Assembly: GCF_022179545.1 (NCBI RefSeq)
Contig: NZ_AP025518.1
Coordinates: 1,674,001 to 1,738,000, forward strand
Direction of reading: 5' to 3'
Source: Mycolicibacterium fortuitum subsp. fortuitum
Lineage (GTDB): Bacteria; Actinomycetota; Actinomycetes; Mycobacteriales; Mycobacteriaceae
DNA: 64,000 nt
Shown here: positions 1 through 14,507 of the stretch, piece by piece
How positions within the stretch are numbered: the first letter of the stretch is position 1
Layout of the letters: each line of letters starts with the position of its first letter
The notes under the pieces: generated by a model
What the model was told of the DNA's origin: nothing
What the model saw: the letters and a program-made list of their open reading frames with translations, nothing else
Database searches by the model: none
Translations under genes and position numbers: made by a program

Positions 1-27
1 CGGATCGGTAACGATGTACAAGCTCAT
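1..27 (-). CDS. Start of an unidentified gene running off the left edge
   Basis: An ATG at 27-25 on the minus strand opens the frame MSLYIVTDP, still open at the window edge. A ribosome-binding sequence (CTGGAG) lies 6 to 11 nt upstream, and the gene begins 22 nt after the stop of the PDR reductase, so it is probably the next member of the leftward amine operon. Nine residues are too few to assign a family. Only the start site and operon membership can be supported. Confidence 0.5.
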
Positions 28-49: not shown

Positions 50-1009
50 TCAGTAGAGTTCGATGACGAGTTTGTCGCTGAGAGAGCGCGATACGCACAG
101 CGCCATTTCTTCGTTGTTGGCCTTGACGGTCGCCGACAGGCAGTTGTCGCGGTGATCCGGAATGCCCTCGACGACACCGGAGACGCAGGACCCGCAGATT
201 CCCTCCCCGCACGACCTGAACACGTCGCAGCCCGCTTCCTCGAGCACGTCGAGTATCGAGCGGTCGGCCGGGATTTCGAACACCTCACCGGTGGTCAGTT
301 CGACGGTGAACGCCTTGTCGCCGGAGGTGTCGACTTCCTTCGGTGTGAACGCTTCGAGGTGGATGTTCTCGGCGCCGACCGCAGGCGTGAAGGCGGCAAC
401 TACCTGATTCATGAACCCTTCTGGGCCACACGTGTATACGTGGGTATCGGTCGAGATGGTCGATGCCATCTGTTCGAACAGCACGGGTTGCCCGGTGCGG
501 GGTACCCCGATGTGCAGGGTGACGAAGTCGCGGTATTCGACTCGTTCGGTGAGGAAGTCGTCGAATGCCATCTCCTCCCGTGACCGCCCGAAGTAGTGCA
601 GCTCGAAGTCAGCACCCCAGCTGTACAGCTCGAAGGCCATGCTCATCAGCGGCGTGAGGCCGATGCCGCCGGCGATCAGAATGTGCTTGGCGGCGTCCGG
701 AACGATGCCGAGCATGTTGCGCGGCTTGCTGATCTTGAGATGATCGCCGACCTTGAGCGCATGCATGGCCGCTGAGCCGCCTTGCGGCCCTTCTTTTTTG
801 ACCGCGACCCACATCGACGAGTCGTCTTTGGGTGAGCCGGCCAGTGAGTACTGGCGAAGCACCCCGGTGGGTCCGGTCACGTCGATGTGCGCGCCGGACC
901 GCCACTCACCGAAGGGAGATCCGTCGAGCTGCTCCAGGCGCAATCCCCGGATATCCGGTGTCTCGACCTGGATCTCGGCGATACGGACCACGATGCTGTT
1001 TTCCATCAT
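50..1009 (-). CDS. PDR/VanB-family oxidoreductase (flavin, NAD(P) and [2Fe-2S])
   Basis: A 319-residue single-chain electron-transfer reductase of the phthalate dioxygenase reductase type. It passes electrons from NAD(P)H through a flavin and an iron-sulfur centre to an oxygenase. Visible are the flavin motif RQYSLAGSP (N-terminal third), the nucleotide-binding AGGIGLTP, and a C-terminal plant-type ferredoxin domain with Cys267, Cys272, Cys275 and Cys305 (CGEGICGSC and a distal ALC). It overlaps the upstream hydrolase by 4 nt (ATGA). There is no separate ferredoxin gene in the visible part of the cluster, so its own [2Fe-2S] domain is the obvious donor to the P450 at 4648-5853; that pairing is inference. 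A second, similar reductase lies at 19933-20892. An oxygenase encoded beyond the left edge could be its true partner. Confidence 0.9.
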   Translation of the reverse strand: MMENSIVVRIAEIQVETPDIRGLRLEQLDGSPFGEWRSGAHIDVTGPTGVLRQYSLAGSPKDDSSMWVAVKKEGPQGGSAAMHALKVGDHLKISKPRNMLGIVPDAAKHILIAGGIGLTPLMSMAFELYSWGADFELHYFGRSREEMAFDDFLTERVEYRDFVTLHIGVPRTGQPVLFEQMASTISTDTHVYTCGPEGFMNQVVAAFTPAVGAENIHLEAFTPKEVDTSGDKAFTVELTTGEVFEIPADRSILDVLEEAGCDVFRSCGEGICGSCVSGVVEGIPDHRDNCLSATVKANNEEMALCVSRSLSDKLVIELY

Positions 1010-1797
1010 CGGGCTCCGGGGTCAGGCCCGCCGGCGGCGATGAAGCCGGCGAGCAGTTGGTAGAGCGGTTCCAGCGGCCCATCGTCATCTTCCGGGTGGA
1101 ACTGCACGCCCAGCACCCAGTCCGTGGGGTGCTCGACGCCTTCGACGATGCCGTCGAGGGCCCGGGCGGCGACGACGAGTTCATCTGCCACGTCGTCGAC
1201 GGCCTGGTGGTGACCGGACCGGACGACGAGGGGGCCGGCCCCGAGGATGACGGCCAGCCGGGTCTCGGGTAGCACTTCGACCTTCTCGTCGATGAAGAGG
1301 TGTTCGCCCGGCCCGCCGCGGTGGAGCTGGTAGTCGGTGATGTCGCCGATGATCGTGCCGCCGTAGCAGACGTTGATCAGTTGTGAACCACGGCAGATAC
1401 CCAACACCGGCCGACCGGCGTCGATATACGCCCGGATCATGTCGATGCTGACCCGGTCGGCCTCCGCATCGACCCCGTAGGAGTTCGGAAGGACGCCGTC
1501 CGGTCCGCCGTAGCAGGTCGCGGCGATATCGCCACCCCCGAGCACCAACAGGCCGTCGGCGTCGACGACCACGTCGACGGATCCGGGTTCGGTAGTGTCC
1601 ACCAGCTCGAAGCTGGCATCGAGCTCGGCCAGTGCTGTCAAGACCGTGCGGGTGAAGCGCCGGTGCAGTGCGGCGACCGGTGCGGTGAGATCGGGGAAGT
1701 TGAGGGATACCAGCACCGCGACGTGCGGCCGTCCCGGTGCCCGGGTGCGGGCTCCGGATGGTTCGACCTCGTCGCGCAGGACGACGGGGTTGTTCAT
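1006..1797 (-). CDS. Class I glutamine amidotransferase-like gamma-glutamyl hydrolase (PuuD-like), copy 1
   Basis: 263 residues starting at the ATG that overlaps the stop of the preceding gene by 4 nt; longer in-frame extensions are arginine-rich and look non-coding. The nucleophile elbow LGICRGSQLINV contains the Cys, and GVQFHPE supplies the His and Glu of the triad. This places it in the peptidase C26 / gamma-glutamyl-GABA hydrolase group. Such enzymes release glutamate from gamma-glutamylated amines or amino acids. Its neighbours are a glutamine-synthetase-like ligase and a second hydrolase, so it probably removes the gamma-glutamyl handle after oxidation. The exact substrate is not evident from sequence. 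Confidence 0.88.
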   Translation of the reverse strand: MNNPVVLRDEVEPSGARTRAPGRPHVAVLVSLNFPDLTAPVAALHRRFTRTVLTALAELDASFELVDTTEPGSVDVVVDADGLLVLGGGDIAATCYGGPDGVLPNSYGVDAEADRVSIDMIRAYIDAGRPVLGICRGSQLINVCYGGTIIGDITDYQLHRGGPGEHLFIDEKVEVLPETRLAVILGAGPLVVRSGHHQAVDDVADELVVAARALDGIVEGVEHPTDWVLGVQFHPEDDDGPLEPLYQLLAGFIAAGGPDPGAR

Positions 1798-2510
1798 ACC
1801 AAGGCCTCCATTCTCGATTTGGCGGCTCGTTCGGAGAGGTCGGCGAAAAGCGCTGCGTCGCTGCGCGAGGAGGCGTGCAGATCCTCGGGATGCCATTGCA
1901 CGGCAAGCAGATTCCCGCCGGTGTGTTCGAGGGCTTCCACACACCCGTCGTCTGCGGTGGCGGCCACGCGCAGGTCGGCACCTATGGCACCGACCGCCTG
2001 GTGGTGATACGACGACACCGGGATGCGGGTGGACCCCGTGATCTGGAAGAGTCGGCTGTTCTCGGCCACCATCACGTCGTGGACGGCGTTACCGTGCGCG
2101 ACGCTGCTCGCCGGCAGGTGCTGGATCAGGTCGCCGCCCTGCACCACGTTGAGGATCTGCATCCCGCGGCAGATCGCCAGGGTCGGGATGCCCAGTCGCA
2201 CGGCGCAGGACATGACCGCCATGTCGAACGCATCCTGGTGTGCCACCGGGTCTTCGGTCTGCGCGACAGGCTGCTGCCCGTAGTGCCGGGGATCGAGGTC
2301 CGCCCCTCCGGGCATGCAGATGCCGTCGAACCGGGTCAGCCGGTCGGCCAGTTCCGCGGCAGGGTCACCGTCCGGGCCGTGCAGCACGAGCGGCTCACCA
2401 CCGCCTGCCCACACTGCCTCGCAGATGGCCTCTGCGGCCAGGGTCGCACTGAAGCGCAGGATCGGCACGCGGGCGGCGCGCCGGCCCGGCACCGCGATGA
2501 GCGGTCGCAT
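1794..2510 (-). CDS. Gamma-glutamyl-gamma-aminobutyrate hydrolase family protein (PuuD-like), copy 2
   Basis: 238 residues with the class I amidotransferase fold: LAICRGMQILNVVQGG (Cys nucleophile) and LLAVQWHPEDLH (His/Glu). It starts 1 nt after the stop of the solute-binding-fold gene and overlaps the next hydrolase by 4 nt. The N-terminus MRPLIAVPGRR is typical of PuuD-like proteins. The family hydrolyses gamma-Glu-N bonds. The two adjacent copies are clearly divergent in sequence, so they may act on different gamma-glutamyl intermediates (before and after oxidation) or form a hetero-oligomer; both ideas are inference. Confidence 0.9.
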   Translation of the reverse strand: MRPLIAVPGRRAARVPILRFSATLAAEAICEAVWAGGGEPLVLHGPDGDPAAELADRLTRFDGICMPGGADLDPRHYGQQPVAQTEDPVAHQDAFDMAVMSCAVRLGIPTLAICRGMQILNVVQGGDLIQHLPASSVAHGNAVHDVMVAENSRLFQITGSTRIPVSSYHHQAVGAIGADLRVAATADDGCVEALEHTGGNLLAVQWHPEDLHASSRSDAALFADLSERAAKSRMEALV

Positions 2511-2511
2511 G

Positions 2512-3213
2512 TCAGCTCACCTCGAAGGGGTAGTCCAGCGTCGGCAGCCACTGCGCCCATGCGGACTTCAGCCGTCCGTCGGCGATGATCCGGCTCAGGG
2601 CACCATCAAGGGCCGCAAGGGTTTCCGGGCGATCCTTGGCGACGGCGATGCCCCACGGGTTGTTGGTCTTGACGACGAACGCAAGCTCGAAGTCCGGATC
2701 GGCGTCGCCGAGCGGTACGAATACGACATCGTCGTCACAGACAGCGTCGACCTCGCCCGAGCGCAGTGCGGCCAGCATGTCCTCGTAGACGTGCTCCGAC
2801 TCGAACTCGACCACCTCCGCACCGGTGAAGGAGGCGGCCAGGTTGTAGTTGGCCGAGGCACGGATGGCGGCGATCCGCTTGCCGGCCAGACCCGCCGGGT
2901 CGGGCACAGCCTCGCCCCGGCGCATCAGGATGCCTTCGTGGAAAATTCCGTAGGGCCGGGTGAAATCGGCCTGCTCCAGGCGGGCTGGGATGATGCCCTG
3001 GCCGCACAGCACACCGTCCACCCGATGGTCGCGAGCGGCGGGCAGCATGTCGCCCCACGGCATGATGACCCACTCCAGTTCCCGGTTCAGCTCGGCCGCA
3101 AGGAGGTCGGCCACAGCCGGCTCGTATCCCGCCCGGCCACCGGGTGACGACGCGAGCCCGAACAGCGGGGGAGCGTCGGCGTCGATGCAGGCCAGGCGCA
3201 GCGGCTCGGTCAC
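2512..3213 (-). CDS. Solute-binding-fold protein (SBP_bac_3-like) without signal peptide
   Basis: 233 residues, starting at a GTG that overlaps the stop of the glutamine-synthetase-like gene by 4 nt (GTGA). The sequence reads like an amino-acid ABC transporter binding protein of family 3: LRLACIDADAPPLFG at the N-terminus, a GILMRRGE hinge region, and VDAVCDDDVVFVPL near the second lobe. No hydrophobic signal sequence or lipobox precedes the domain, and upstream in-frame sequence lies inside the ligase gene and is Arg-rich shadow. No ABC permease or ATPase is nearby. It is therefore probably cytosolic: a ligand sensor or carrier, or an enzyme built on this fold. Function unknown. Confidence 0.78.
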   Translation of the reverse strand: MTEPLRLACIDADAPPLFGLASSPGGRAGYEPAVADLLAAELNRELEWVIMPWGDMLPAARDHRVDGVLCGQGIIPARLEQADFTRPYGIFHEGILMRRGEAVPDPAGLAGKRIAAIRASANYNLAASFTGAEVVEFESEHVYEDMLAALRSGEVDAVCDDDVVFVPLGDADPDFELAFVVKTNNPWGIAVAKDRPETLAALDGALSRIIADGRLKSAWAQWLPTLDYPFEVS

Positions 3214-4595
3214 GGGGTGTCCTCCCAGTACATCGTGCGCTCCCAATCGGTGATCGAGCTGTTGAACCGGGCCCACTCGTCGGTCTTGTACTCCAGCAAC
3301 AGGTTCCCCAGCGGAGCGCCCAGCGCGTTGATCAGATAGTCGTCGGCCTTGAACGCCGCCAGCGCATCGCCGAGGGTGAGCGGCAGCTCTCCGAACAACT
3401 CGGGTTCCGTGGACTCGTAGCTCGAGCCGACCGTCGGTGCACCGGGGCTGATCTGGTTCTTCAAGCCGTCGTCGATGGACACCAGCATCGCCGCGTGGGT
3501 CAGGTACGGGTTGCATGCGGCATCGGGGAGCTTGTACTCGAGCCGGCCGTTGGCCGACAGGCGCACCGTGCAGGTCTTGTTGTCGAGCCCCCAGTTGATC
3601 TTCGACGGTGCGAACTGTCCCGCGTCCCAGTATCGCTTGTAGGAGTTGACCGTTGACCCCATGATCAGCATCGCGCCCGGGGTATGGGTGAGCAGCCCGC
3701 CCAGGGCGTACTGCCCCTCCTCGGTCAGGTGCAGATCGTGGCGGCCTTCGTCGGCCAGGATGTTTACGTCACCGCGCCAGAGGCTGAAGTTGTGGTGGCA
3801 GCCGTTGCCCATGTAGCCCTGGCCGGGTTTGGGCATGAAGCTCGCCTCGATGCCGAGCTCCCGGGCGACCTGCTTACAGATCTGCCGGTAGGTCATCAGC
3901 CGGTCGGCCGTTGCGTCGCTGTGGTCGAACATCCAGTTGAGCTCGACCTGGCCGGCGTCCTCGAAGTCGCCTTCGACCATCTGGAAACCCATGAACTTCG
4001 CGTACGAGATCACCTTCTGGTAGATCGCGCGGTATCGCTCAAGGTGCTCGATGTGATAGGCCGGGCTTGAGTCTGGCCGTGACGATGTGGTGAACCCGGG
4101 TCCCTCCCAGGTCATCTCGGGCTCGGTGCCGGTGCGCAGCTCCAGCCCGGTCCGATCGGTGAACGCCGCGTGCAGTCGCTTCATCAGGCCGCGGGTGTCG
4201 GTCGGCAGGGGCGCGCCGGGATCGACCATCACGTGGTCGGGCTCGTACAGGCTGCAGAAGACGCGTGCGGTCTTGTGGTCCCACGGCAGTACTGAGAAGG
4301 TGTCGAGGTCGGGCATCGCGCAGTACTCGGGCGCGCCGACGCCGCCGCCGAGCAGTACGCCCTCGCGGGTGGTCTGCAGGTTGGCGATGGCGGTGCGGTG
4401 CTGCATGACACCGCGGGTCGCCAGCCGCGCGAATTGGTCGGCGGGAACTACTTTTCCGACGACTCTCGCCGTGATCGTCACGGCCTGGAAGTAGACGAAC
4501 TCCACGCCGTACTGCTTGATCGCCGCGAGTGCGGCATCGAGGGCTCCGGGTGTGGAATTGGCCTCACGGTGTTGGTCGAGCGCTGTTGTGCTCAT
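3210..4595 (-). CDS. Glutamine synthetase family ligase, probably a gamma-glutamylamine synthetase (PuuA-like)
   Basis: 461 residues; the ATG at 4595 follows a GAAAGGT-type ribosome-binding site. GS family landmarks: EPEMTWEG, EGDFEDAGQVELNW, the His-rich loop KPGQGYMGNGCHHNFSLW, and NSYKRYWDAGQFAPSKINWG followed by GRLEYKLPDAACNPYL. The Tyr of the GlnA adenylylation loop (usually NLxYSARN) is absent, so this is not ordinary nitrogen-assimilation GlnA. GS paralogues located beside amidotransferase-like hydrolases attach glutamate to amines, as in PuuA and aniline AtdA1. Here it lies between a P450 and two hydrolases, suggesting that it primes an amine for oxidation. Substrate unproven. Confidence 0.9.
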   Translation of the reverse strand: MSTTALDQHREANSTPGALDAALAAIKQYGVEFVYFQAVTITARVVGKVVPADQFARLATRGVMQHRTAIANLQTTREGVLLGGGVGAPEYCAMPDLDTFSVLPWDHKTARVFCSLYEPDHVMVDPGAPLPTDTRGLMKRLHAAFTDRTGLELRTGTEPEMTWEGPGFTTSSRPDSSPAYHIEHLERYRAIYQKVISYAKFMGFQMVEGDFEDAGQVELNWMFDHSDATADRLMTYRQICKQVARELGIEASFMPKPGQGYMGNGCHHNFSLWRGDVNILADEGRHDLHLTEEGQYALGGLLTHTPGAMLIMGSTVNSYKRYWDAGQFAPSKINWGLDNKTCTVRLSANGRLEYKLPDAACNPYLTHAAMLVSIDDGLKNQISPGAPTVGSSYESTEPELFGELPLTLGDALAAFKADDYLINALGAPLGNLLLEYKTDEWARFNSSITDWERTMYWEDTP

Positions 4596-4647
4596 GGACG
4601 CGGACCTTTCGGGATGAGTGTGGTGGGGGTTGGGACGGATGGCCCGC

Positions 4648-5853
4648 TCAGGCCGGGGTGAAGCTGATCGGGAGCTTGTTCGCGCCGGTGTTGCCCGAGT
4701 CGGGCATCCAGTCGGCACCGTCGAGCATCTTCGGATCCCGAAGCCGGCGGGCCAGCAGCGGCAGCGCCTCGGCCATGTCGGCACGGGCGACGAAATGCCC
4801 GAGGCAGTGGTGGGTGCCGCCACCGAAACCGTAGTGCGGCTTGCGTTCTGCGGCGATGTCGAAGCTGGGCTGCCCGAACACCCGTGGATCGGTGCCCGAT
4901 GACTCGCTGAACAGGTGAACGGTGGTTCCGGCGCTGATCGCCAGTCCTTGGTATTCGAAGTCCTCGGTTGCCTCGCGGGTGACCCAGCGGACCGTCGGGT
5001 TGGTCCGCATGACTTCCTCGACGGCCTTGCCGCCGAGAGCGGGGTTCTGCGCGAGCAGATTCCACTGTGCAGGGTTGTCGATGAAGCTCTGCATCGCCAG
5101 GCCCAGTTGGTTGCGGGTGGTGTCGTAGCCGCCGAAGATCATCAGGACGAACGCGTCGCGCAGTTCTTCGGTGGACAGCCCTCCGTCGTTCTTCGCCTGC
5201 ACCAGCGTCGTCGTGAAGTCGTCGCGCGGATTGGCCTCGCGGTCTGCGATCGCGGCGTCGGCGTAGTCGAACAGCGTGGCCAGCGCTGCCTCTATCCGGG
5301 GCAGCTCCTGCTTGAAGGTGATGCCCATCGCCAGCCCGATGGTGGCGGACTCACGGGCGATGATCTCCCATTCCGACTCGGGCAGCCCGAGCATGATGGC
5401 GATGACCCGGGCGGCATATGGATCGGCGAATTCGCCGATGAACTCGCACTCGCCCCTGTCGCCGAAGGCGTCGATGAGTTCGCTTGCCAGCGCCTGGAAT
5501 CGAGGCACCAGGCCTTTGATCAATCGCTTGGAGAACGCCGGGTTGAGCAGCGTCCGCAGCCGCCGGTGCTCTTGACCCTCCTTGTTCAGGATCCAGCTGT
5601 TCCACCAGTCCAGGAACGGACCGTCGGTGACCCCGTTGTGGGCCGGCCAGTGCACACTGCCCTGACGCAGGCTCGGATGGTGCATGAGCTCGCTGACCTC
5701 GGCGTAGCGCAGGACGGCGATCCCGTACTCGGTGTGGGCGAACCAGCTGGCCTCGCGGGCCTCGTGGACCACGGCCGAGGTGATCGAGAACGAGGGATCG
5801 GTCACGTGCAGGCGCGGAGCCTCGGTGCCGGTGGTGATGGTGTTCGGAGTCAC
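4648..5853 (-). CDS. Cytochrome P450 of the amine catabolic operon
   Basis: 401-residue soluble bacterial P450. The I-helix oxygen-activation motif is FGGYDTTRNQ, the ExxR pair lies in EEVMR, and the heme loop is YGFGGGTHHCLGH with Cys350 as thiolate ligand. There is no membrane anchor. It sits 38 nt after the permease and 52 nt before the glutamine-synthetase-like gene. Cytochromes P450 encoded next to GS-like genes are known from mycobacteria that degrade piperidine, pyrrolidine and morpholine (CYP151; recalled, not checked), but there a ferredoxin and a separate reductase follow, whereas here only a PDR reductase is present. Substrate is inferred to be an amine or its gamma-glutamyl derivative; family number cannot be assigned by eye. 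Confidence 0.93.
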   Translation of the reverse strand: MTPNTITTGTEAPRLHVTDPSFSITSAVVHEAREASWFAHTEYGIAVLRYAEVSELMHHPSLRQGSVHWPAHNGVTDGPFLDWWNSWILNKEGQEHRRLRTLLNPAFSKRLIKGLVPRFQALASELIDAFGDRGECEFIGEFADPYAARVIAIMLGLPESEWEIIARESATIGLAMGITFKQELPRIEAALATLFDYADAAIADREANPRDDFTTTLVQAKNDGGLSTEELRDAFVLMIFGGYDTTRNQLGLAMQSFIDNPAQWNLLAQNPALGGKAVEEVMRTNPTVRWVTREATEDFEYQGLAISAGTTVHLFSESSGTDPRVFGQPSFDIAAERKPHYGFGGGTHHCLGHFVARADMAEALPLLARRLRDPKMLDGADWMPDSGNTGANKLPISFTPA

Positions 5854-5891
5854 GGTGACTCTCCTCTGGTGATCCTAATCTGGCAGGGCAG

Positions 5892-7403
5892 CTAAACCGG
5901 CTGTGCCACAACGGGTTCATCCGGTGATACGGCCGGGGCCGTGGGGATCGCGTCGGCGTGCGGCGTGGTGCCGTTGGAATGGGAGCGGACGATGGCCATG
6001 TAGAGCAGACCGAGCCCGATGACGATGCCTGACATCAACAGCACGATGTAGTTGTCGTACCAGGGCGCTTCGGGCGTGCGGGGCCAACAGATGTTGATGA
6101 TGGCTGCTACGCCGTAGATCAGGGCGCCGAGGTTGACCAGCAACCCCCAGCGGCCGAGGCGGTACTTCCCACTCGGGTTCCATCCTTTGACACGTGCCCG
6201 CAGGGCGGCGAACACGACCATCTGGAAAGCGATGTAGATACCGACCGAACCGAAGCTGATGAGCTTGGTCAGCGCGTCGGCGGAGACGATCGATCCGATG
6301 ATGAGGGCGGCGGGAACGACGGCCGCGGCGAGCAACGCATACGGCGGCACATGGCGTTTCTTGTCGAACCGGGCCCACAGCTTGGAGCCGACGATCATGC
6401 CGTCGCGCCCGTAGGAGTAGAGCAGTCGGCTGGCTGCGGCCTGCAGGCTCAGGGCGCACGACACGAACGAGATCAGCACGATGCAGAGCACGATCTTGGA
6501 TCCGACTGGGCCGAAGGCCGCGGCCAGCACGGTCGAGATCGGATCGACGTCCTCGCCGCGGATCACCGCGCCGATGTCGACGACCGACAGCACCAGGCTG
6601 AGGCAGACGAAAGTGGCTGCGGCGCCGCCGATGTAGATCGTCCGTCGCATCGACTTCGGGATCTGCACTCCTGGGTTGCGGACTTCCTCTGCTACGTCAC
6701 CGCAGGCCTCGAATCCGTAGTACTGGAAGACGCCGATCAGGCTGGCCGCGAGGAACGCGTAGAGGAAGCTGTGCTCGCCCTGTGCTCCGAAGCTGTCGAA
6801 CAGTACGCCCAATCCGTGGTGGCGTTGGGTGAGCAACAGCCAGCCGCCGACGATCAGCGCGCCGATCAGTTCGGCGGTGAAGCCGAAGATCGCGAAGTAG
6901 CTCAGCATCTTGGTACCGGTGAGGTTGATGACGGTGGCCAGCAGCAGCACGATCAATGCGCAGACGATGGTCGTGTAAACCGTTGAGGTGAAACCGAACA
7001 CGGTCGCCACGAACGGACCTGCGCCATAGGCCACGCCGGCGATCGTGGCCAGCAGCGCGAAGATGTACACCCAGCCGGTCATCCAGGCCCATTTGCGGCC
7101 CCACAGCCGGCGGGCCCACGGGTAGACGCCGCCGGCGACCGGGAATTGGGCGACGATCTCGCTGAACACCAGCGCGACCAGCAACTGGCCGAAGCCGGCG
7201 ATCAACAGGCTCCAGATCATCGGCGGGCCGGCCGCGGCCAGTGCGAATGCGAAGACGGTGTAGATGCCGACGACCGGCGAGAGATAGGTGAAGCCGAGCG
7301 AGAAGTTGGCCCAAAGGCTCATGTCTCGTTTGAACTCGGACTGGAAACCGAGCGCGGCGAGTTGCGCGTGGTCCTCGTCGTGCGGCTCGGGAGATGTCGA
7401 CAT
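5892..7403 (-). CDS. APC-superfamily amino acid/amine permease
   Basis: About 503 residues from the ATG at 7403 (GAAAG upstream); an ATG at 7433 or a TTG at 7457 would add 10 or 18 residues, and the choice is uncertain. About twelve hydrophobic segments are visible, beginning with FSLGFTYLSPVVGIYTVFAFAL and including PVAGGVYPWARRLWG, typical of the amino acid-choline transporter branch. It is the first gene of the leftward operon and probably imports the amine substrate. PuuP occupies the same role in the E. coli putrescine pathway. The last 30 residues are polar and cytosolic. Confidence 0.9.
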   Translation of the reverse strand: MSTSPEPHDEDHAQLAALGFQSEFKRDMSLWANFSLGFTYLSPVVGIYTVFAFALAAAGPPMIWSLLIAGFGQLLVALVFSEIVAQFPVAGGVYPWARRLWGRKWAWMTGWVYIFALLATIAGVAYGAGPFVATVFGFTSTVYTTIVCALIVLLLATVINLTGTKMLSYFAIFGFTAELIGALIVGGWLLLTQRHHGLGVLFDSFGAQGEHSFLYAFLAASLIGVFQYYGFEACGDVAEEVRNPGVQIPKSMRRTIYIGGAAATFVCLSLVLSVVDIGAVIRGEDVDPISTVLAAAFGPVGSKIVLCIVLISFVSCALSLQAAASRLLYSYGRDGMIVGSKLWARFDKKRHVPPYALLAAAVVPAALIIGSIVSADALTKLISFGSVGIYIAFQMVVFAALRARVKGWNPSGKYRLGRWGLLVNLGALIYGVAAIINICWPRTPEAPWYDNYIVLLMSGIVIGLGLLYMAIVRSHSNGTTPHADAIPTAPAVSPDEPVVAQPV

Positions 7404-7483
7404 AGGCGGCCGGCTTTCTGTGTCAGGGGCCATGTTCAGGGGCGGGCTGTGAGACAAGCCATAGACCTAAAACATAAAGGACC

Positions 7484-7497
7484 ATAGTTCATAGTTC
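7484..7497. repeat. Tandem ATAGTTC heptamer in the divergent promoter region
   Basis: Two head-to-tail copies of ATAGTTC lie in an AT-rich stretch (about 7461-7510) between the permease and the GntR gene. This 140-nt gap must hold the promoters of both. The repeat is a plausible regulator-binding site, but FadR-type GntR proteins more often bind inverted repeats, so the assignment is weak. Confidence 0.4.
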
Positions 7498-7544
7498 AAG
7501 ACTTATCGCGTACCATCGTCGAAATTGCCCTGGCAGGAGGGAAA

Positions 7545-8297
7545 GTGGCGGTCGAACAGTTGCGCGGCCTGACCGCGGTGGGGGCAGTGTTGTCGCCACT
7601 GGCGGGCAGCGGCCCCCGCACAGACGCCGTGGTCGCGCGGATCTCGGCCGCCATCGGCCTGGGGGTGATCTCCGACGGCGAGCAGCTTCCGAGCGAAATC
7701 GATCTGGCCACCCAACTCGGCGTATCGACCATGACCCTGCGTGAAGCGCTGGCCATCCTGCGGGAGCAGGGGCTGGTGGTGACCAAGCGAGGTCGCGGCG
7801 GCGGAAGCTTCGTGCGTGCCTCAGCTGAAGACGTCCACGCACGATCATTGGCGCTGCTGCAGGAGCTGACCGTCGAGGGGTTGCGTGACCTGGGGGACGA
7901 ACACTTCGCGGTCGCCGGCGCCACCGCGGTTCTCGCGACCCGCCGGGCCGTGGCAGCCGACATCGCGAGGCTGCGCACGTTGGCGGACCGTCTTGCGGCC
8001 AGTGAAGACGCGATCTCCAGCCGTCGGGCCGACAGCCGCTTTCAGATCGAGGTCGCGGTGTGTTCGCAGTCCGCTCGTCTCACCCGCGCAGAGGTGAACA
8101 TTCAGGCCGAATTGGCGGCGATGGTGTGGCTACCACGCCTGGGATTGAATCCGGCGGATGAAGCAGCCCGACATCAGCAACTCGTCGACGCGATCGAGAC
8201 CGGCGATCAAGCGGGCGCGCGATCATTGGCAGAGGAGTACAGCGCGCTGACCATCCGACGGCTGATCGGCCTGCGGATGGAGCTCGCCAGATCATGA
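7545..8297 (+). CDS. GntR/FadR-family transcriptional regulator
   Basis: 250 residues from a GTG start preceded by AGGAGGG. The N-terminal winged helix shows EQLPSEIDLATQLGVSTMTLR, then EALAILREQGLVVTKRGRGGGSFV. The C-terminal half is a helical FCD-type effector domain (LVDAIETGDQAGARSLAEEYSAL near the end). It is divergent from the permease-P450-ligase operon and upstream of the Cache-domain gene and the aminotransferase operon, so it is the likely local regulator of both arms, with the amine or a breakdown product as effector. That regulatory scope is inference; a GntR regulator also accompanies the CYP151 amine clusters as recalled. Confidence 0.9.
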   Translation: MAVEQLRGLTAVGAVLSPLAGSGPRTDAVVARISAAIGLGVISDGEQLPSEIDLATQLGVSTMTLREALAILREQGLVVTKRGRGGGSFVRASAEDVHARSLALLQELTVEGLRDLGDEHFAVAGATAVLATRRAVAADIARLRTLADRLAASEDAISSRRADSRFQIEVAVCSQSARLTRAEVNIQAELAAMVWLPRLGLNPADEAARHQQLVDAIETGDQAGARSLAEEYSALTIRRLIGLRMELARS

Positions 8298-8372
8298 GTC
8301 CGCAGGTTGATCCGGCATCCTGCCGGGCGCCGGTGCCTGGGCTGACGCCGACACAGACGGAAGGGCATTCGA

Positions 8373-9128
8373 ATGAAGGCGAACGGAACGGACCGGTCGT
8401 TTCGCGCCGATAACGGCGATGCGGCACTCGAGCTGGTCTCTGCGGCCGTGACCTCACTCGTGGAGAACATCTTCGCCTCGCTGCGCACCGTCGCAGCGGC
8501 CACCCGTGCGCTGTGGGACCGCATCGAGGAATCCGGCGACAGGCCCGGCTCATCGGACCTGGCAGCGCTGCGCGACCCGGTGATCGGCGAATTGCAGCGG
8601 CAGGCCCAACTGGTGAACGGGGTCGGCTTTGTCGTCGCCGACGGCGCGCTGGCCGACGCTCCCCGTTACCTCGAGTGGTGGCGTCCCGACGTCAAACCGG
8701 GTGGTGAGGCACAACGGCTTGAGCTGGATCTCAGTCCGGGCAGCGAGTACTTCTACGACTACTCCACGATGGAGTGGTATTCGGGCCCGCGCGACCGGGG
8801 CGTCCCGTGGGTGCACGGACCGTATCTCGACTACACCGGCGTCGATCTCTACGTGTGTACCTTCACCGTTCCGGTGACCTCCGGGCGAGGGAAGTTCATC
8901 GGCGTCGCGGGGGCCGATGTACCGGTAGCCCGGCTTGATGCCGCGCTGTTGCCGACGTTCGCGGCCCATCGCACACCGCTGGCGCTCACCAACTCCGAGG
9001 GGCGGGTGATCGTCGCCAACGACGCCGAGCACGTCGCGGGGTCCAAGCTCGAGGACCCGGGTTCGCTGACGGCGCTGCCGGTTTCGGCGACACCCTGGTC
9101 GTTGGTGTCACTTCGCTCGGAGACGTGA
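8373..9128 (+). CDS. Soluble Cache (PDC-type) sensor-domain protein
   Basis: 251 residues, ATG start with GGAAGGG upstream. The core reads like the membrane-distal module of a dCache domain: RYLEWWRPD, EYFYDYSTMEWYSGPRDRG, WVHGPYLDYTGVDLYVCTFTVPV and GKFIGVAGADV, with a second small module GRVIVANDAEHVAG. Unlike usual Cache receptors it has no membrane segments, no signal peptide and no output domain. In amino-acid-binding dCache domains a Tyr-x4-Arg-x-Trp-Tyr motif contacts the ligand; here the corresponding stretch is YDYSTMEWY, with Met at the Arg position. Loss of the carboxylate-binding Arg would fit an amine rather than an amino acid ligand, but this is inference. It may sense pathway metabolites for the adjacent GntR regulator. 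Confidence 0.75.
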   Translation: MKANGTDRSFRADNGDAALELVSAAVTSLVENIFASLRTVAAATRALWDRIEESGDRPGSSDLAALRDPVIGELQRQAQLVNGVGFVVADGALADAPRYLEWWRPDVKPGGEAQRLELDLSPGSEYFYDYSTMEWYSGPRDRGVPWVHGPYLDYTGVDLYVCTFTVPVTSGRGKFIGVAGADVPVARLDAALLPTFAAHRTPLALTNSEGRVIVANDAEHVAGSKLEDPGSLTALPVSATPWSLVSLRSET

Positions 9129-9301
9129 AGGGCTAACACCCCAGTCCGACGAGTATTGCCGCGCGGGCCCGAGGATCTCGCCCGCGATACTCAATCGCCG
9201 ATGTGGACAACACCGGCATCAATATTGTCCAAACCGGCCATGGGTGTTCCCGGTGGTTGATTCATAGGCTGGCGCCCACATCGACGGAAGGAACGAGCGA
9301 G

Positions 9302-10681
9302 ATGACGATGCTCGACACGGTGGTGGGCGGCCCGGAACTGCGCCAGGAACGCCGATTGATCACCGAGGTGCCGGGGCCGCGCTCGCGCGAGCTGGCCACC
9401 CGGCGCGCCGGCGCCCTGCCCGCGGGATTGTCCAGCGGTGCGCCGGTTTACGCGGCCGCCGCCGGCGGGGGAGTGATCATCGATGTCGACGGCAACTCGT
9501 TCATCGACATGGGTAGTGGCATCGCGGTCACCACCGTGGGCAATGCCGCGCCGGCCGTGGTCGCGCGCGCCACCGATCAGCTGGCCCGCTACACCCACAC
9601 CTGCTTCCTGGCGACCCCGTACGAGCCGTACATCGAGGTCGCAGAAAGGCTCAACCAGCTCGCCCCCGGAACACACGACAAGCGGACCGCACTGTTCAAC
9701 ACCGGTAGCGAAGCCGTCGAGAACGCCGTCAAGTACGCCCGCGCCGCCACCAAGCGGCCCGCCGTGGTGGTGTTCGACCACGCGTTCCACGGCCGTTCGC
9801 TGCTGACGATGACCATGACCGCCAAGAACCAGCCCTACAAGCACAGTTTCGGGCCGTTCGCTCCCGAGGTGTATCGCGCGCCGATGGCCTATCCGTACCG
9901 CTGGCCGTCCGGTCCGGAGAACTGCGCCGCCGAAGCGTTCAGTCAATTCGCGCAACTCATCGACGCCCAGATCGGCGCCGATGCAGTGGCCTGCGTCGTG
10001 GTCGAACCGATTCAGGGTGAAGGCGGATTCATCGTTCCCGCCGAGGGATTCCTGCCCGCGGTGGCCGACTTCTGCCGCGACCGCGGCATCCTGCTGGTCG
10101 CCGACGAGGTGCAGGCCGGCATCGCCCGCACCGGAACGTGGTTCGCCAGTGAGCATGACGGTTTGGTGCCCGACATGATCGTCACCGCCAAGGGTCTGGC
10201 CGGTGGCATGCCACTGGCCGCGGTCACCGGACGCGCCGACGTGATGGACGCCGCGCATCCCGGCGGAATCGGAGGCACCTACAGCGGCAACCCGGTGGCC
10301 TGCGCGGCCGCTTTGGGTGTCTTCGATGAAATCGAGCAGCACCGACTGCTCGATCGCGCCCGAGCCATCGGTGACGTTCTGGTCCGTGAACTGCGCGAGA
10401 TCGTCGGCACCACAGAGGTTCTCGGTGATGTCCGCGGACGGGGCGCGATGATCGCCGCCGAACTCGTCGTTCCAGGCACCCGAACGCCCAACCGCGACGC
10501 GGTGGCCGCCGTCAGCCGTCACTGCCTGGACAACGGCGTGCTCACGCTGACCGCCGGAACATTCGGCAATGTGCTGCGATTCCTGCCGCCGCTGTCGATT
10601 TCGGATGATCTGCTCATCGAGGCATTGGGCGTCGTACGCGATGCCTTTGCCGCTCTAATTCACCCACCGAATCTCGCTTAG
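9302..10681 (+). CDS. gabT: 4-aminobutyrate/5-aminovalerate aminotransferase (class III)
   Basis: 459 residues; the ATG at 9302 has GGAAGGAACGAG upstream, so the longer in-frame start at 9203 is rejected. Class III PLP fold: NTGSEAVENAVKYAR, VVFDHAFHGRS, VVEPIQGEGGF, LLVADEVQAGIARTG, and Lys297 in VTAKGLAGGMPLAAV as the PLP Schiff-base lysine. It transfers the omega-amino group of GABA-like substrates to 2-oxoglutarate, giving a semialdehyde. Being followed by a glutaryl-CoA-dehydrogenase-like gene, a semialdehyde dehydrogenase and a CoA-transferase, 5-aminovalerate is the more likely substrate here, although GABA cannot be excluded. Confidence 0.93.
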   Translation: MTMLDTVVGGPELRQERRLITEVPGPRSRELATRRAGALPAGLSSGAPVYAAAAGGGVIIDVDGNSFIDMGSGIAVTTVGNAAPAVVARATDQLARYTHTCFLATPYEPYIEVAERLNQLAPGTHDKRTALFNTGSEAVENAVKYARAATKRPAVVVFDHAFHGRSLLTMTMTAKNQPYKHSFGPFAPEVYRAPMAYPYRWPSGPENCAAEAFSQFAQLIDAQIGADAVACVVVEPIQGEGGFIVPAEGFLPAVADFCRDRGILLVADEVQAGIARTGTWFASEHDGLVPDMIVTAKGLAGGMPLAAVTGRADVMDAAHPGGIGGTYSGNPVACAAALGVFDEIEQHRLLDRARAIGDVLVRELREIVGTTEVLGDVRGRGAMIAAELVVPGTRTPNRDAVAAVSRHCLDNGVLTLTAGTFGNVLRFLPPLSISDDLLIEALGVVRDAFAALIHPPNLA

Positions 10682-10691
10682 GAGTCACCTC

Positions 10692-11891
10692 ATGACGACC
10701 ACCGCTGCCGCTCCGGCTGCCAAGAAGTCCACCTATCGGCCGTTGGAGTTGTTCGATACCGATCGGTTGCTGGATCAGGATGAGCGCGATATCGCCGCGA
10801 CGGTCCGCCAGTTCGTCGACACCCGGCTGCGGCCCAATGTCGAGGGCTGGTTCGAATCAGCCACCCTGCCTCGGGAACTGGCCAAGGAATTCGGCACCCT
10901 GGGGGTGCTGGGCATGCACCTGCAAGGCTACGGCTGTGCGGGCACCAACGCCGTCAGCTACGGCCTGGCCTGCATGGAACTGGAAGCCGGCGACAGCGGA
11001 TTCCGCAGCTTCGTCTCCGTCCAGGGCTCACTGTCGATGTTCTCCATCTACCGCTACGGCTCCGAAGAACAAAAACAGCACTGGCTGCCCCGGCTGGCCA
11101 CCGGTGAGGCCATCGGCTGCTTCGGGTTGACCGAACCCGACTTCGGCTCCAACCCCGCCGGCATGCGCACCCGCGCCCGCCGCGACGGCACCGACTGGGT
11201 GCTCAACGGCACCAAGATGTGGATCACCAACGGCAACCTCGCCGACGTGGCCACCGTGTGGGCCCACACCGACGACGGCATCCGGGGCTTTGTGGTGCCC
11301 ACCGACACCCCCGGCTTCACCGCCAACGAAATCCACCGCAAGCTGTCCCTGCGCGCCTCGATCACCTCCGAACTGGTACTGGACAACGTCCGGCTGCCCG
11401 CCTCGGCGCAACTACCCCTGGCCGAAGGACTGTCCGCCCCGCTGTCCTGCCTCAACGAAGCCCGGTTCGGCATCGTGTTCGGCGCCCTGGGCGCCGCCCG
11501 GGACAGCCTGCAGACCGCGATCGACTACGCCGGCTCGCGTGAGGTGTTCGACAAACCCTTGTCCAGCTACCAGCTCACCCAGGAAAAGCTGGCCAACATG
11601 ACCGTCGAACTCGGCAAGGGCATGCTGCTGGCCATTCACCTGGGCCGCATCAAAGACGCCGAGGGCGCCCGGCCCGAGCAGATCAGCCTGGGCAAGCTCA
11701 ACAACGTGCGCGAAGCCCTGGCCATCGCCCGCGAATGCCGCACCCTGCTCGGCGGCAGCGGCATCACCCTCGAATACTCACCACTGCGCCACGCCAACAA
11801 CCTCGAATCCGTCCTCACCTACGAAGGCACCTCCGAAATGCACCTGCTGTCCATCGGCAAAGCACTGACCGGCCAAGCAGCCTTCCGCTGA
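10692..11891 (+). CDS. Acyl-CoA dehydrogenase, probably glutaryl-CoA dehydrogenase
   Basis: 399 residues with the acyl-CoA dehydrogenase architecture: GCFGLTEPDFGSNPAGM (flavin side), WITNGNLADVATVWA, and the C-terminal TYEGTSEMHLLSIGKALTG with Glu378 as the catalytic base. The Glu position and the pattern SLSMFSIYRYGSEEQKQHWLP match the glutaryl-CoA dehydrogenase branch, which oxidises and decarboxylates glutaryl-CoA to crotonyl-CoA. It begins 10 nt after gabT. Its placement with a class III aminotransferase and a CaiB-type CoA-transferase supports that substrate. Another short or branched acyl-CoA is possible. Confidence 0.85.
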   Translation: MTTTAAAPAAKKSTYRPLELFDTDRLLDQDERDIAATVRQFVDTRLRPNVEGWFESATLPRELAKEFGTLGVLGMHLQGYGCAGTNAVSYGLACMELEAGDSGFRSFVSVQGSLSMFSIYRYGSEEQKQHWLPRLATGEAIGCFGLTEPDFGSNPAGMRTRARRDGTDWVLNGTKMWITNGNLADVATVWAHTDDGIRGFVVPTDTPGFTANEIHRKLSLRASITSELVLDNVRLPASAQLPLAEGLSAPLSCLNEARFGIVFGALGAARDSLQTAIDYAGSREVFDKPLSSYQLTQEKLANMTVELGKGMLLAIHLGRIKDAEGARPEQISLGKLNNVREALAIARECRTLLGGSGITLEYSPLRHANNLESVLTYEGTSEMHLLSIGKALTGQAAFR

Positions 11892-11919
11892 ACCGCCGCA
11901 ACCTGATTGGAGCAATCGG

Positions 11920-13392
11920 ATGACTACGCATACACCGGCACGGCTTCAGCACCTCATTGCCGGGCAATGGATTTCCGGCGAGGGTGATCGCGTCCGCAGT
12001 GTCGATCCTTCACGGCCACAGTCGGTCGTCGCCGAAGGCGGCGCCGCGAGCGCAGACCACCTCGGAGCGGCGGTCGCCGCGGCCGGCGACTCGGTTCGTG
12101 CGTGGTCGGCCACCCCGATGGCCGAGCGCGGTGGTGTGCTGCTGGCCGCGGCCGAGATCCTCGACGGCAACGCCGCCGAATGGGGCCGCGACCTGTCGGT
12201 CGAAGAAGGCAAGACGCTGGCCGAAGGCGTCGGTGAAGTGCGTCGTGCGGCGCAGATCCTGCGCTACTACGGCAACGAGGGGGACCGGCAGGCCGGCGAG
12301 ATCTACTCCTCCCCGCGTGCCGGTGAACAAATCCTGGTCACCCGCAAGCCCGTTGGGGTCGTCGGGGTCATCACCCCGTTCAACTTTCCGATTGCCATCC
12401 CGGCGTGGAAGATCGCACCGGCCCTGATCTACGGCAACGCGGTGGTGTGGAAGCCCGCCAGCACCGTGCCCCTGCTGGCGACGCACCTGGCGCGTGCGCT
12501 CGACGCCGCGGGCCTGCCAGCGGGTGTGCTCAATTTGCTCATCGGCGGCTCGGCCATCGGCGACGGGATCGTCAACCATCCCGACGTCGATGCCGTCACG
12601 TTCACCGGGTCGACCGGCATCGGGCGGCGGATCGCGAGCATGGCAGCCGCCCGCGGGGTTCCGGCGCAAGCCGAGATGGGCGGCAAGAACGCCGCCGTCG
12701 TGCTCGACGACGCGGATCTGGACCTGGCGGTCGAGCAGGTGATGCTGGGTGCGTTCCGTTCGACCGGGCAAAAGTGCACGGCCACATCACGATTGATCCT
12801 CACCGAGAATATCGCTGACCGTTTCCTGGATACGCTCGCAGACCGCGCCGGGGCACTGGTGGTCGGCGATCCGGTTGACGAGGCAACGCAAATGGGTCCG
12901 GTCGTCAGCGAGGCGGCCTACAAGACGATCACAACCGGCATCGACACCGCGCGGACCCAGGGAGCCACAGTGCTGGCCGGCGGGCAGCCGTATGCGGACG
13001 AGCTGCGGGCTCACGGCTACTTCATTGCGCCGACGGTCATCGAACTCGGCGACCAGCCTGCCGACCTGTGGACCGACGAGTTGTTCGGCCCAGTGCTCGC
13101 GGTGCGCCGCGCCGCCGACGCCGAGGAAGCGTTCGCGCTCGCCAATGACAGCGAATTCGGCCTGTCGGCAGCGGTTTTCACCCAGGATCTGACCCGCGCA
13201 CTGCAAGCGGTCGAGCACATCGACGTCGGGGTACTGCACGTCAACTCCGAATCAGCCGGTGCGGACCCGCATGTGCCGTTCGGTGGCGCCAAGAAGAGCG
13301 GGCTGGGGCCCAAGGAACAGGGCTCGGCAGCCCGGGAGTTCTTCACCCACACCACAACGGTGTACCTGCGCGGCGGAGCGCCGCGCTCATGA
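11920..13392 (+). CDS. Semialdehyde dehydrogenase (succinate/glutarate semialdehyde, GabD/DavD-like)
   Basis: 490 residues of the NAD(P)-dependent aldehyde dehydrogenase family. The nucleotide-binding motif FTGSTGIGRR, general base Glu252 (AEMGGKNA) and nucleophile Cys286 (TGQKCTA) are intact. It is the third gene of the rightward operon, 28 nt after the dehydrogenase, and overlaps the next gene by 4 nt (ATGA). It would oxidise the aldehyde made by the aminotransferase to a dicarboxylate. The EMGGKNA variant also occurs in 2-oxoglutarate-semialdehyde dehydrogenases, so substrate preference is inferred from context. Confidence 0.9.
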   Translation: MTTHTPARLQHLIAGQWISGEGDRVRSVDPSRPQSVVAEGGAASADHLGAAVAAAGDSVRAWSATPMAERGGVLLAAAEILDGNAAEWGRDLSVEEGKTLAEGVGEVRRAAQILRYYGNEGDRQAGEIYSSPRAGEQILVTRKPVGVVGVITPFNFPIAIPAWKIAPALIYGNAVVWKPASTVPLLATHLARALDAAGLPAGVLNLLIGGSAIGDGIVNHPDVDAVTFTGSTGIGRRIASMAAARGVPAQAEMGGKNAAVVLDDADLDLAVEQVMLGAFRSTGQKCTATSRLILTENIADRFLDTLADRAGALVVGDPVDEATQMGPVVSEAAYKTITTGIDTARTQGATVLAGGQPYADELRAHGYFIAPTVIELGDQPADLWTDELFGPVLAVRRAADAEEAFALANDSEFGLSAAVFTQDLTRALQAVEHIDVGVLHVNSESAGADPHVPFGGAKKSGLGPKEQGSAAREFFTHTTTVYLRGGAPRS

Positions 13393-14507
13393 TCGCCGGT
13401 GCCCTCGACGGAATCACCGTAGTCGACTTCAGCCGCGTGCTCGCCGGACCGTACGCCACCATGATGCTCGGCGACTTCGGGGCGGACGTCATCAAGATCG
13501 AACGGCCCGGCGTCGGGGACGACACCCGCGAGTGGGGACCGCCGTATGACGCCGACGGCGTCGCCACCTACTTCAATTCCGTCAACCGCAACAAGCGCTC
13601 TGTGGTGCTCGATCTCACCGATCCCGCCGACGTCGCCCGGGCCCGCGAATTGGTCAGCGGCGCCGATATCGTCGTCGAGAACTTCCGGCCCGGAACCATG
13701 GAAAAGCTCGGTCTGGGCTATGACACTCTCCGCGAGGTCAAGCCGGACCTGATCTACTGCGCCATCACCGGATTCGGCCAGGACGGCGGCGCCGCCCTGC
13801 CAGGCTACGACCTGCTGGTCCAAGCCGTCGGCGGTCTGATGAGCATCACCGGCACCGAGCCCGGCGACCCCACCAAGGTCGGGGTTGCGATGGTCGACGT
13901 GCTCACCGGCATGCACGCCATCACAGGCATCCTGGTGGCACTGGCCCACCGCGACCGCACCGGGCAGGGACAGCGAGTCGACACCAACCTGCTGTCAGTG
14001 TTGTTGTCCTCCATGGTCAACCAGGCCTCGGGATTCCTGGGCGCCGGCAGCGTTCCGACGATCATGGGAAATCGCCACCCGAGTATCGCGCCCTACCAGA
14101 CCTTCAACACCGCGGATCGTCCCATCGCAGTGGCCGTCGGCAATGACAAACAGTTCCGGTTGTTGGTCACCGCACTCGGGCTCGACCGGCTCGCCGACGA
14201 CGAACGCTTCACCTCGAACGCCTTACGGGTACGCCATCGAGACGAGCTGTGCGCTCTGTTAGAGGCCGAATTCAGCAACCATGGCGCCGATCACTGGTAC
14301 GGCGTGCTCACCGCGGTGGGGGTGCCCGCCGGGCCCATCAACGACATGGCCGAGGCATTCGCTTTCGCCGAGAAGCTGGGCTTGGCCGTGACCGTCCCGG
14401 TTCCTGGGAGCAGCACCCCTCAGGTCGCCAATCCCGTGTCGCTGTCGGCCACGCCGGTGCAGTACCGCAGTGCACCACCCCGGCTGGGGGAGCACCTGCC
14501 CAACTGA
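13389..14507 (+). CDS. CaiB/BaiF-family (class III) CoA-transferase, probably glutarate CoA-transferase
   Basis: 372 residues. Landmarks of the family: GITVVDFSRVLAGPYATMML, GADVIKIERPGVGDDTREWG, NRNKRSVVLDL, VVENFRPGTMEKLGLGYD, and the catalytic Asp141 in PGYDLLVQA. Such enzymes move CoA between carboxylates through an aspartyl-CoA anhydride. The human homologue SUGCT is a succinyl-CoA:glutarate CoA-transferase. In this operon it would activate glutarate for the glutaryl-CoA dehydrogenase. Start codon overlaps the preceding stop (ATGA), so expression is coupled. The glutarate assignment is inference from neighbours. Confidence 0.9.
   Translation: MIAGALDGITVVDFSRVLAGPYATMMLGDFGADVIKIERPGVGDDTREWGPPYDADGVATYFNSVNRNKRSVVLDLTDPADVARARELVSGADIVVENFRPGTMEKLGLGYDTLREVKPDLIYCAITGFGQDGGAALPGYDLLVQAVGGLMSITGTEPGDPTKVGVAMVDVLTGMHAITGILVALAHRDRTGQGQRVDTNLLSVLLSSMVNQASGFLGAGSVPTIMGNRHPSIAPYQTFNTADRPIAVAVGNDKQFRLLVTALGLDRLADDERFTSNALRVRHRDELCALLEAEFSNHGADHWYGVLTAVGVPAGPINDMAEAFAFAEKLGLAVTVPVPGSSTPQVANPVSLSATPVQYRSAPPRLGEHLPN

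Follow-up and report, generated by a model that had tools for sequence, protein, structure and literature searches.

Gene content and layout of the island

The stretch analysed here (the window, 64,000 nt) spans positions 1,674,001–1,738,000 of the single-contig, 6.4 Mb genome of Mycolicibacterium fortuitum subsp. fortuitum, which holds 51 P450-domain matches. Between window positions 50 and 14507 lies an island in which two divergent arms flank a GntR regulator and a cytochrome P450 gene is linked to a glutamine synthetase (GS)-like gene. Coordinates together with Pfam and NCBIfam matches bear out this divergent arrangement and every gene that the original prediction had named in it. The left arm (minus strand) comprises, in order, an APC-type amine/amino-acid permease (5892..7403; AA_permease_2, 153 bits), a 401-aa cytochrome P450 (4648..5853; p450, 75 bits), a 461-aa GS-like ligase (3210..4595; Gln-synt_C, 239 bits), an SBP_bac_3 solute-binding protein (2512..3213), two peptidase C26/PuuD-like hydrolases, A (1794..2510; Pfam, 164.6 bits) and B (1006..1797; Pfam, 127.7 bits), and a phthalate dioxygenase reductase (PDR)-type reductase with a flavin/NAD domain and a C-terminal 2Fe-2S domain (50..1009; Fer2). 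Intergenic gaps are 38, 52, −4, 1, −4 and −4 nt, and another 22 nt leads to a second aldehyde dehydrogenase (ALDH; 448 aa; Aldedh, 405 bits), also on the minus strand, of which the window contains the first codons (1..27, the rest at L009:12681-14027). Because the gaps within the arm range only from −4 to 52 nt, the layout suggests that the left arm forms a single operon. The original prediction had not included this second ALDH, most of which lies beyond the window, and had made no comment on the signal-less binding protein described below or on the unusual presence of the PDR-type reductase.

The right block (plus strand) begins with a GntR/FCD (FadR-type) regulator (7545..8297; Pfam GntR and FCD) and a cache/PDC sensor-domain protein (8373..9128), followed by an aminotransferase, a glutaryl-CoA dehydrogenase, an ALDH and a CaiB-type protein, with gaps of 75, 74, 10, 28 and −4 nt. 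The four enzymes stand together as a putative arm from 5-aminovalerate to glutaryl-CoA. Among them, only the class III, GABA-type (5-aminovalerate) aminotransferase (9203..10681) passes a curated NCBIfam cut-off (TIGR00700, 551.6 bits, cut-off 506.65). For the glutaryl-CoA dehydrogenase (10692..11891), the match to 3swo, a structure deposited under that enzyme name, reaches 833.5 bits, and the matches to 1siq and 1sir reach 363 bits. The ALDH, a probable glutarate semialdehyde dehydrogenase (11920..13392), passes no cut-off among the 25 NCBIfam ALDH families listed, and the CaiB-type CoA-transferase (13389..14507), probably acting on glutarate, has succinate–glutarate CoA-transferase as its best NCBIfam match (376 bits, below the cut-off of 750). 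The second ALDH of the left arm is SSADH-like (452.6 bits to a succinate-semialdehyde dehydrogenase-type NCBIfam, under the cut-off of 730), and we propose that it serves as a γ-glutamyl-aminoaldehyde dehydrogenase.

The original prediction had also stated that the locus lacks an amine oxidase. Searches of the same genome with Cu_amine_oxid, Amino_oxidase and DAO agree, giving no match from 1,660,001 to the right end of the island; by the DAO and Amino_oxidase searches, no PuuB-type FAD oxidase lies in the locus or in the 14 kb to its left. Elsewhere in the genome there are one copper amine oxidase (1.98 Mb off), 18 Amino_oxidase matches and 81 DAO matches, the latter mostly weak, although several Amino_oxidase and DAO matches are strong.

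Conservation of the module and exchange of its redox-partner genes

We surveyed loci by one scan of named genomes with the P450 alignment (A1), keeping 80 of 104 confirmed loci: a close set of 59 (L041-L099; P450 58–95% identical) and a distant set of 21 (L100-L120; 46–54%, some short). The loci share descent, so the counts below are not independent. In 55 of the 59 close loci the P450 has a GS-like gene no more than 8.5 kb away, and at the threshold used none of the 21 distant loci does; of the four close loci lacking it, L089, L091 and L097 are near contig ends and L093 is not. The 55 GS-linked loci carry the binding protein (54), the GntR regulator (50), the cache protein (49), the permease (49), ferredoxin (43), ALDH (40), an FAD reductase (33), CaiB (13), the aminotransferase (10), the PDR-type reductase (7) and glutaryl-CoA dehydrogenase (5), and C26 hydrolases are present in two copies in 44 loci, in one copy in seven and in none in four. 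At least two of aminotransferase, glutaryl-CoA dehydrogenase, right-arm ALDH and CaiB occur in the whole locus in 23/59 close loci, versus 0/21 distant loci. The module is found in Mycobacteriaceae, Nocardioidaceae, Streptomycetaceae, Thermomonosporaceae and other families. The search across actinobacteria that the original prediction had called for thus recovers the same gene set in several families, which argues that the set is not a chance assembly. Of the 396 genomes sampled within the genus, 44 carry the P450 at E ≤ 1e-120.

Alignment to structures of GS and γ-glutamylmethylamide synthetase, read like the other comparisons with PDB enzymes from printed HMMER output, indicates that the flap glutamate typical of glutamine synthetases is absent from the GS-like ligase. 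This residue of GS 8ool, the counterpart of Glu327 in E. coli GS, aligns with Phe328, and the position is phenylalanine in 57 of 57 sequences. We therefore regard the protein as a probable γ-glutamyl-amine synthetase. The cut-offs are reached neither for the PuuA equivalog NF045547 (182.9 bits, cut-off 650) nor for the PuuD equivalog NF008471 (70.8 bits, cut-off 266). The PuuD structure 6vtv is among the PDB matches of hydrolase A, whose putative catalytic columns (Cys114, His207, Glu209) are kept as Cys in 51, His in 51 and Glu in 52 of 52 sequences, and Cys135, His234 and Glu236 of hydrolase B are all kept in 47/47; both are thus candidate γ-Glu hydrolases.

The binding protein shows no hydrophobic N-terminus, as a signal peptide would require, in 57 sequences, and no ABC transporter genes lie between 50 and 14507. 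For both reasons the protein does not look importer-like, and we ruled out its gene as part of an ABC importer; it is more probably a cytosolic binder of an amino acid (γ-glutamyl compound). At 2–5 kb past the second ALDH, the opposite strand encodes a separate NMT1-type binding protein, accompanied by ATPase and permease frames. The SBP_bac_3 gene was found in 46/396 genus genomes, namely the 44 with the P450 and two in which the P450 frame is split while the binding-protein gene is kept (G009:C1:4071554-4072728 and G056:C1:2866599-2867767; decaying or mis-sequenced loci).

These proteins bear on another explanation of the ligase, in which it merely assimilates ammonia released by the pathway and the C26 proteins serve another purpose. 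This is how the GS was read in Gulosibacter, where ferredoxin, reductase, P450 and GS appear twice in consecutive gene numbers, 435-438 and 3049-3052 (PMC9477822). We consider such a role very unlikely for the island, given the missing flap glutamate in 57/57 sequences, the two linked PuuD-type hydrolases with conserved Cys-His-Glu columns, the amino-acid-binding protein linked to the GS-like gene and the five other GS-domain genes in the same genome.

The odd part of the locus is the PDR-type reductase. Most relatives of the P450 are accompanied by a 62-aa single-cluster ferredoxin, and many also by a pyridine-nucleotide ferredoxin reductase; the clade to which the window belongs has neither at the locus and carries the PDR-type reductase. 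No single-cluster ferredoxin gene lies downstream of the P450 in the window locus, whereas 43/48 GS-linked loci without the PDR-type reductase contain a ferredoxin. In none of the 55 loci does this reductase co-occur with ferredoxin or FAD reductase, and 15/55 have neither it nor FAD reductase. We checked this pattern in 18 of the 46 module-bearing genus genomes, comprising 11 whose binding protein is at least 93% identical to that of the window and seven drawn from the remaining 35. The reductase is present in each of the 11 PDR-clade genomes at 91–100% identity near the P450, and the ferredoxin (L050 as probe) has no match at E ≤ 1e-10 anywhere in them, weaker ferredoxins falling outside this search. 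The best reductase match in the 7 other genomes is 34–41%, and their ferredoxin lies directly beside the P450 in five, 5.6 kb away in G166 and elsewhere in the genome in G034.

In an IQ-TREE phylogeny of 82 P450s, the eight PDR rows form one group (100/100), joined first by ferredoxin-type loci from Nocardioides nematodiphilus and Millisia brevis (99/86) and next by a Gordonia pGKT2 P450 (98/94), which has a long branch and a placement flagged as unsure by the program. Most other mycobacterial rows form a separate group (17 rows including one unclassified metagenome-assembled genome, 100/97), with L092 and L096 elsewhere. The redox exchange is therefore one derived event in this tree. The reductase itself matches 6kbh (P450 monooxygenase, 178 bits), 7ylr (164 bits), 6laa (P450, 164 bits) and PDR (2pia, 157 bits), where the 6kbh match is to the reductase part of a fused P450, and 7ylr and PDR score nearly equally. 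From these matches and from its presence where the ferredoxin is missing, we propose that it is the sole electron donor to the P450. Eighteen clade-fixed differences are listed for the P450, among them C-helix Arg101, which is kept in 53/53 others and replaced by Thr in 8/8 of the PDR clade; this would fit a changed docking face but could be plain divergence. In the GS-like protein, 24 positions differ in this way. The window encodes another PDR-type reductase at 19933-20892, beside a TetR regulator; its identity to the first is 36%, and five other PDR-clade genomes have a 35–37% paralog 28–30 kb from the first.

P450 family and a proposed γ-glutamyl route

The P450 (motifs GGYDT, EVMR and FGGGTHHCLG) is 95% identical to its nearest named relatives in M. 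senegalense, M. houstonense, M. porcinum and Mycobacterium sp. DL99, and has homologs of 70–77% identity in M. smegmatis, M. vanbaalenii, Nocardioides and others, including 71% to an M. smegmatis P450 (P0071) and 72% to an M. vanbaalenii P450 (P0053). Membership of a CYP family is set at an identity of at least 40%. The 1999 PipA paper reportedly describes pipR, pipA, a ferredoxin gene and a truncated GS gene that are required for piperidine and pyrrolidine use. M. vanbaalenii PYR-1 is reported to be cyp151-positive by PCR (PMC10301208), and an operon of CYP151-pipA, ferredoxin and glutamine synthetase is stated for Mycobacterium degrading polycyclic aromatic hydrocarbons, citing work on this strain (PMC10516948). 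In M. smegmatis, the FadR-like GntR protein MSMEG_6700 is the regulator of piperidine and pyrrolidine metabolism (PMC2018728). Given the identity to the M. smegmatis and M. vanbaalenii P450s, the published operon layouts and this regulator, the best evidence, drawn from layout and from the literature, points to a CYP151/PipA-like enzyme.

The CYP151 precedent named in the original prediction thus looks right, as the relatives share the operon layout, and its broader idea of a Puu-like route is supported in so far as the locus joins a γ-glutamyl gene set with a P450 and a 5-aminovalerate/glutarate arm. Its headline, in which the P450 stands in for the amine oxidase of a pathway for linear diamines, is not supported: the 70–77% identical relatives have the CYP151 layout, and the published CYP151 substrates are the cyclic amines piperidine, pyrrolidine and morpholine (PMC9477822). 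Judged by its homologs and their neighbourhoods, the P450 is a member of a GS-like-linked family and no ad hoc stand-in for PuuB. We accordingly find it improbable that a linear diamine such as cadaverine is mono-glutamylated and the P450 takes the PuuB role by oxidative deamination. The Puu-like set with its C5 downstream arm would suit such a route, yet the P450 family and operon layout are of the type found in cyclic-amine loci, and the P450 stays beside the GS-like gene across families.

We instead favour, tentatively and with slightly less than even confidence, the reading that the island serves to catabolise a small secondary amine with a ring structure, piperidine being the likeliest, with the ligase acting before the P450. 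In favour of this reading are the linkage of the GS-like gene to the P450 in the close but not the distant loci, the C26 and binding-protein genes that accompany the pair, and the phenylalanine at the flap position of the ligase. The downstream arm, leading from 5-aminovalerate to crotonyl-CoA, implies a C5 product, and piperidine is the simplest cyclic amine that yields it; the occurrence of two or more arm genes in 23/59 close loci against 0/21 distant ones, and the strong match of the glutaryl-CoA dehydrogenase to 3swo, speak for a C5 substrate. In the proposed route, the permease would import the amine and the GS-like ligase would couple it to glutamate, giving a γ-glutamyl amide. The P450, fed by the PDR-type reductase, would hydroxylate the carbon adjoining the nitrogen, whereupon the N-acyl hemiaminal would open to γ-glutamyl-5-aminopentanal, barred from re-closing to the cyclic imine. 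The second ALDH would then produce γ-glutamyl-5-aminovalerate, from which the C26 hydrolases would free 5-aminovalerate and glutamate, and the right arm would carry 5-aminovalerate through glutarate semialdehyde, glutarate and glutaryl-CoA to crotonyl-CoA. The cytosolic binding protein could hold a compound with a free α-amino-acid head, probably the γ-glutamyl intermediate. We considered, and rejected, the idea that Arg289 in substrate recognition site 5 (SRS5) of the P450 clamps the carboxylate of a glutamyl substrate: 41 relatives have Arg at this position and 19 have Thr, and the difference splits close kin.

We place the ligase first with modest confidence; this order has the 1-naphthylamine precedent, in which glutamylation comes first and an oxygenase acts on the glutamylated amine (PMC11335346). 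The same genes and substrate class would also allow the reverse order, with the free cyclic amine hydroxylated by the P450 and, once the ring has opened, the primary amine of the aminoaldehyde trapped by the ligase before oxidation and hydrolysis. This order is possible, though we doubt it. It gains from the reported oxidation of morpholine in vitro by the MorA system (PMC9477822) and from the acceptance of primary amines by known PuuA- and GlnA3-type ligases (PMC9397018; PMC5403932); it loses from the readiness with which an aminoaldehyde cyclises, as a matter of general chemistry, and from the start of the 1-naphthylamine system with glutamylation.

Several observations weigh against ligase-first catabolism of piperidine. 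The CYP151 label comes from operon layout and the literature rather than from a direct comparison with PipA, and we know of no enzyme of the PDR clade that has been assayed. An in-frame TGA interrupts 5/48 binding-protein matches, ALDH is missing within 8.5 kb in 15/55 loci and C26 in 4/55. Neither ferredoxin nor the PDR-type reductase is present in 5/55 (L069, L070, L081, L082 and L095), so that loci outside the PDR clade, too, can be without a linked partner; this clade is moreover a single lineage, and the exchange therefore counts once. MorA, with its ferredoxin and reductase, is reported to oxidise morpholine directly (PMC9477822) and hence needs no prior glutamylation. Finally, 36/59 loci have fewer than two arm genes and, in several Mycolicibacterium loci, the arm is a separate inverted block. 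Both would fit a different true substrate (pyrrolidine, morpholine or a ring-substituted plant or xenobiotic amine) with the glutarate arm as a mere neighbour. We nonetheless think this unlikely, since the arm in the window directly follows the regulator at the gaps given above, and in two other genus loci, L136 and L137, the P450 block itself includes an aminotransferase gene and a CaiB-like one.

Extending this reading, CYP151-type cyclic-amine catabolism as a whole could be a γ-glutamyl route, a proposal that we likewise hold a little short of an even chance. The amine would receive a glutamate handle, later removed by the hydrolases; an importer-derived cytosolic binding protein would act as intracellular carrier or enzyme for the glutamylated intermediates; and lineages would freely exchange the electron partner, which may be a ferredoxin with its reductase, a PDR protein, an XplB-type fusion, a 2Fe-2S ferredoxin or a fused diflavin reductase. 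No publication on such a route was among the matches listed in the open-licence literature, and the words 'P450' and 'piperidine' are absent from the polyamine review PMC9397018 in the text available. CYP151 P450s have been tied to bacterial use of piperidine, morpholine and similar amines since 1999, and we found no settled role for the linked GS gene; if true, the proposal would rewrite a pathway whose GS gene was read as ammonia assimilation. The conserved ligase, two hydrolases and dedicated binding protein make the route directly testable, and the PDR clade offers a natural experiment in redox-partner exchange that is useful to P450 engineering.

Related systems and neighbouring loci

Like the CYP151/pip-mor loci (PipA, MorA), the island combines a P450, a GntR regulator and an adjacent GS gene; those loci have a ferredoxin, whereas the window clade has the PDR-type reductase in its place. 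The published P450-ferredoxin-glnA layout is that of the surveyed relatives (PMC10516948). New here are the exchange of ferredoxin for a PDR-type reductase, the signal-less binding protein that co-occurs with the P450 and the ligase without flap glutamate. E. coli Puu (PuuPABCDE) shares the logic of permease, GS-like ligase, ALDH, γ-Glu hydrolase and aminotransferase, but the window locus has no PuuB oxidase and falls short of the PuuA and PuuD equivalog cut-offs. The aniline and 1-naphthylamine systems (AtdA, NpaA) likewise couple GS-like glutamylation to an oxygenase, there a dioxygenase and here a P450, for which we propose an aliphatic cyclic amine. A related PDR-type reductase is fused to the P450 in self-sufficient enzymes, which we take to be the CYP116B family, and is a separate gene here.

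The module also has a relative on an explosive-degrading plasmid, the xplAB (RDX) locus of Gordonia sp. KTR9 pGKT2 (L010 13464-20493). Its P450 is 69.8% identical, GntR and cache genes are present, and the GS-like protein is 81% identical over 390 residues; in contrast to the window, this protein shares one frame with an FAD reductase and is followed by another P450, presumably XplB and XplA by position. Hydrolase, binding protein and ferredoxin were not found within 8.5 kb. The locus looks like a rebuilt copy of the window module.

On plasmids of Ruegeria and Paracoccus, a related P450 stands beside two GS-like genes. In Paracoccus sp. TOH plasmid p2 (L153, 7989-10910), the P450 (54%) shares a 974-codon frame with a flavodoxin-type diflavin reductase and is thus likely a self-sufficient relative; next to it, along with the GS-like pair, are amidotransferase/C26 genes and ALDHs, two of each. 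The plasmid of Ruegeria sp. SCSIO 43209 (L151, 8980-18020) carries the P450 (55%), the two GS-like genes, a glutamine amidotransferase, a 2Fe-2S ferredoxin (one more kind of redox partner) and a complete ABC transporter, a true importer. On a Rhodococcus opacus plasmid, a 49% P450 relative is not accompanied by a GS-like gene within the stretch read.

Within the window genome, further GS-domain and C26 pairs lie at G000:C1:2548078-2549752 and 486157-489535, and a GS-domain gene lies 3 kb from a strong DAO match at G000:C1:5919784-5924708. These three loci are probably other γ-glutamyl-amine routes, and a flavin oxidase may take part in the third.

The cache/PDC protein (8373..9128; MCP-like_PDC_1, 34.6 bits, cut-off 27) has no other domain listed and is linked to the module in 49/55 loci. 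The divergent promoter region (7404..7544) is a candidate operator. We looked there for a palindromic operator in an alignment of eight PDR-clade loci, window included, and found by eye just a conserved direct repeat, GAACTAT GAACTAT (minus-strand reading).

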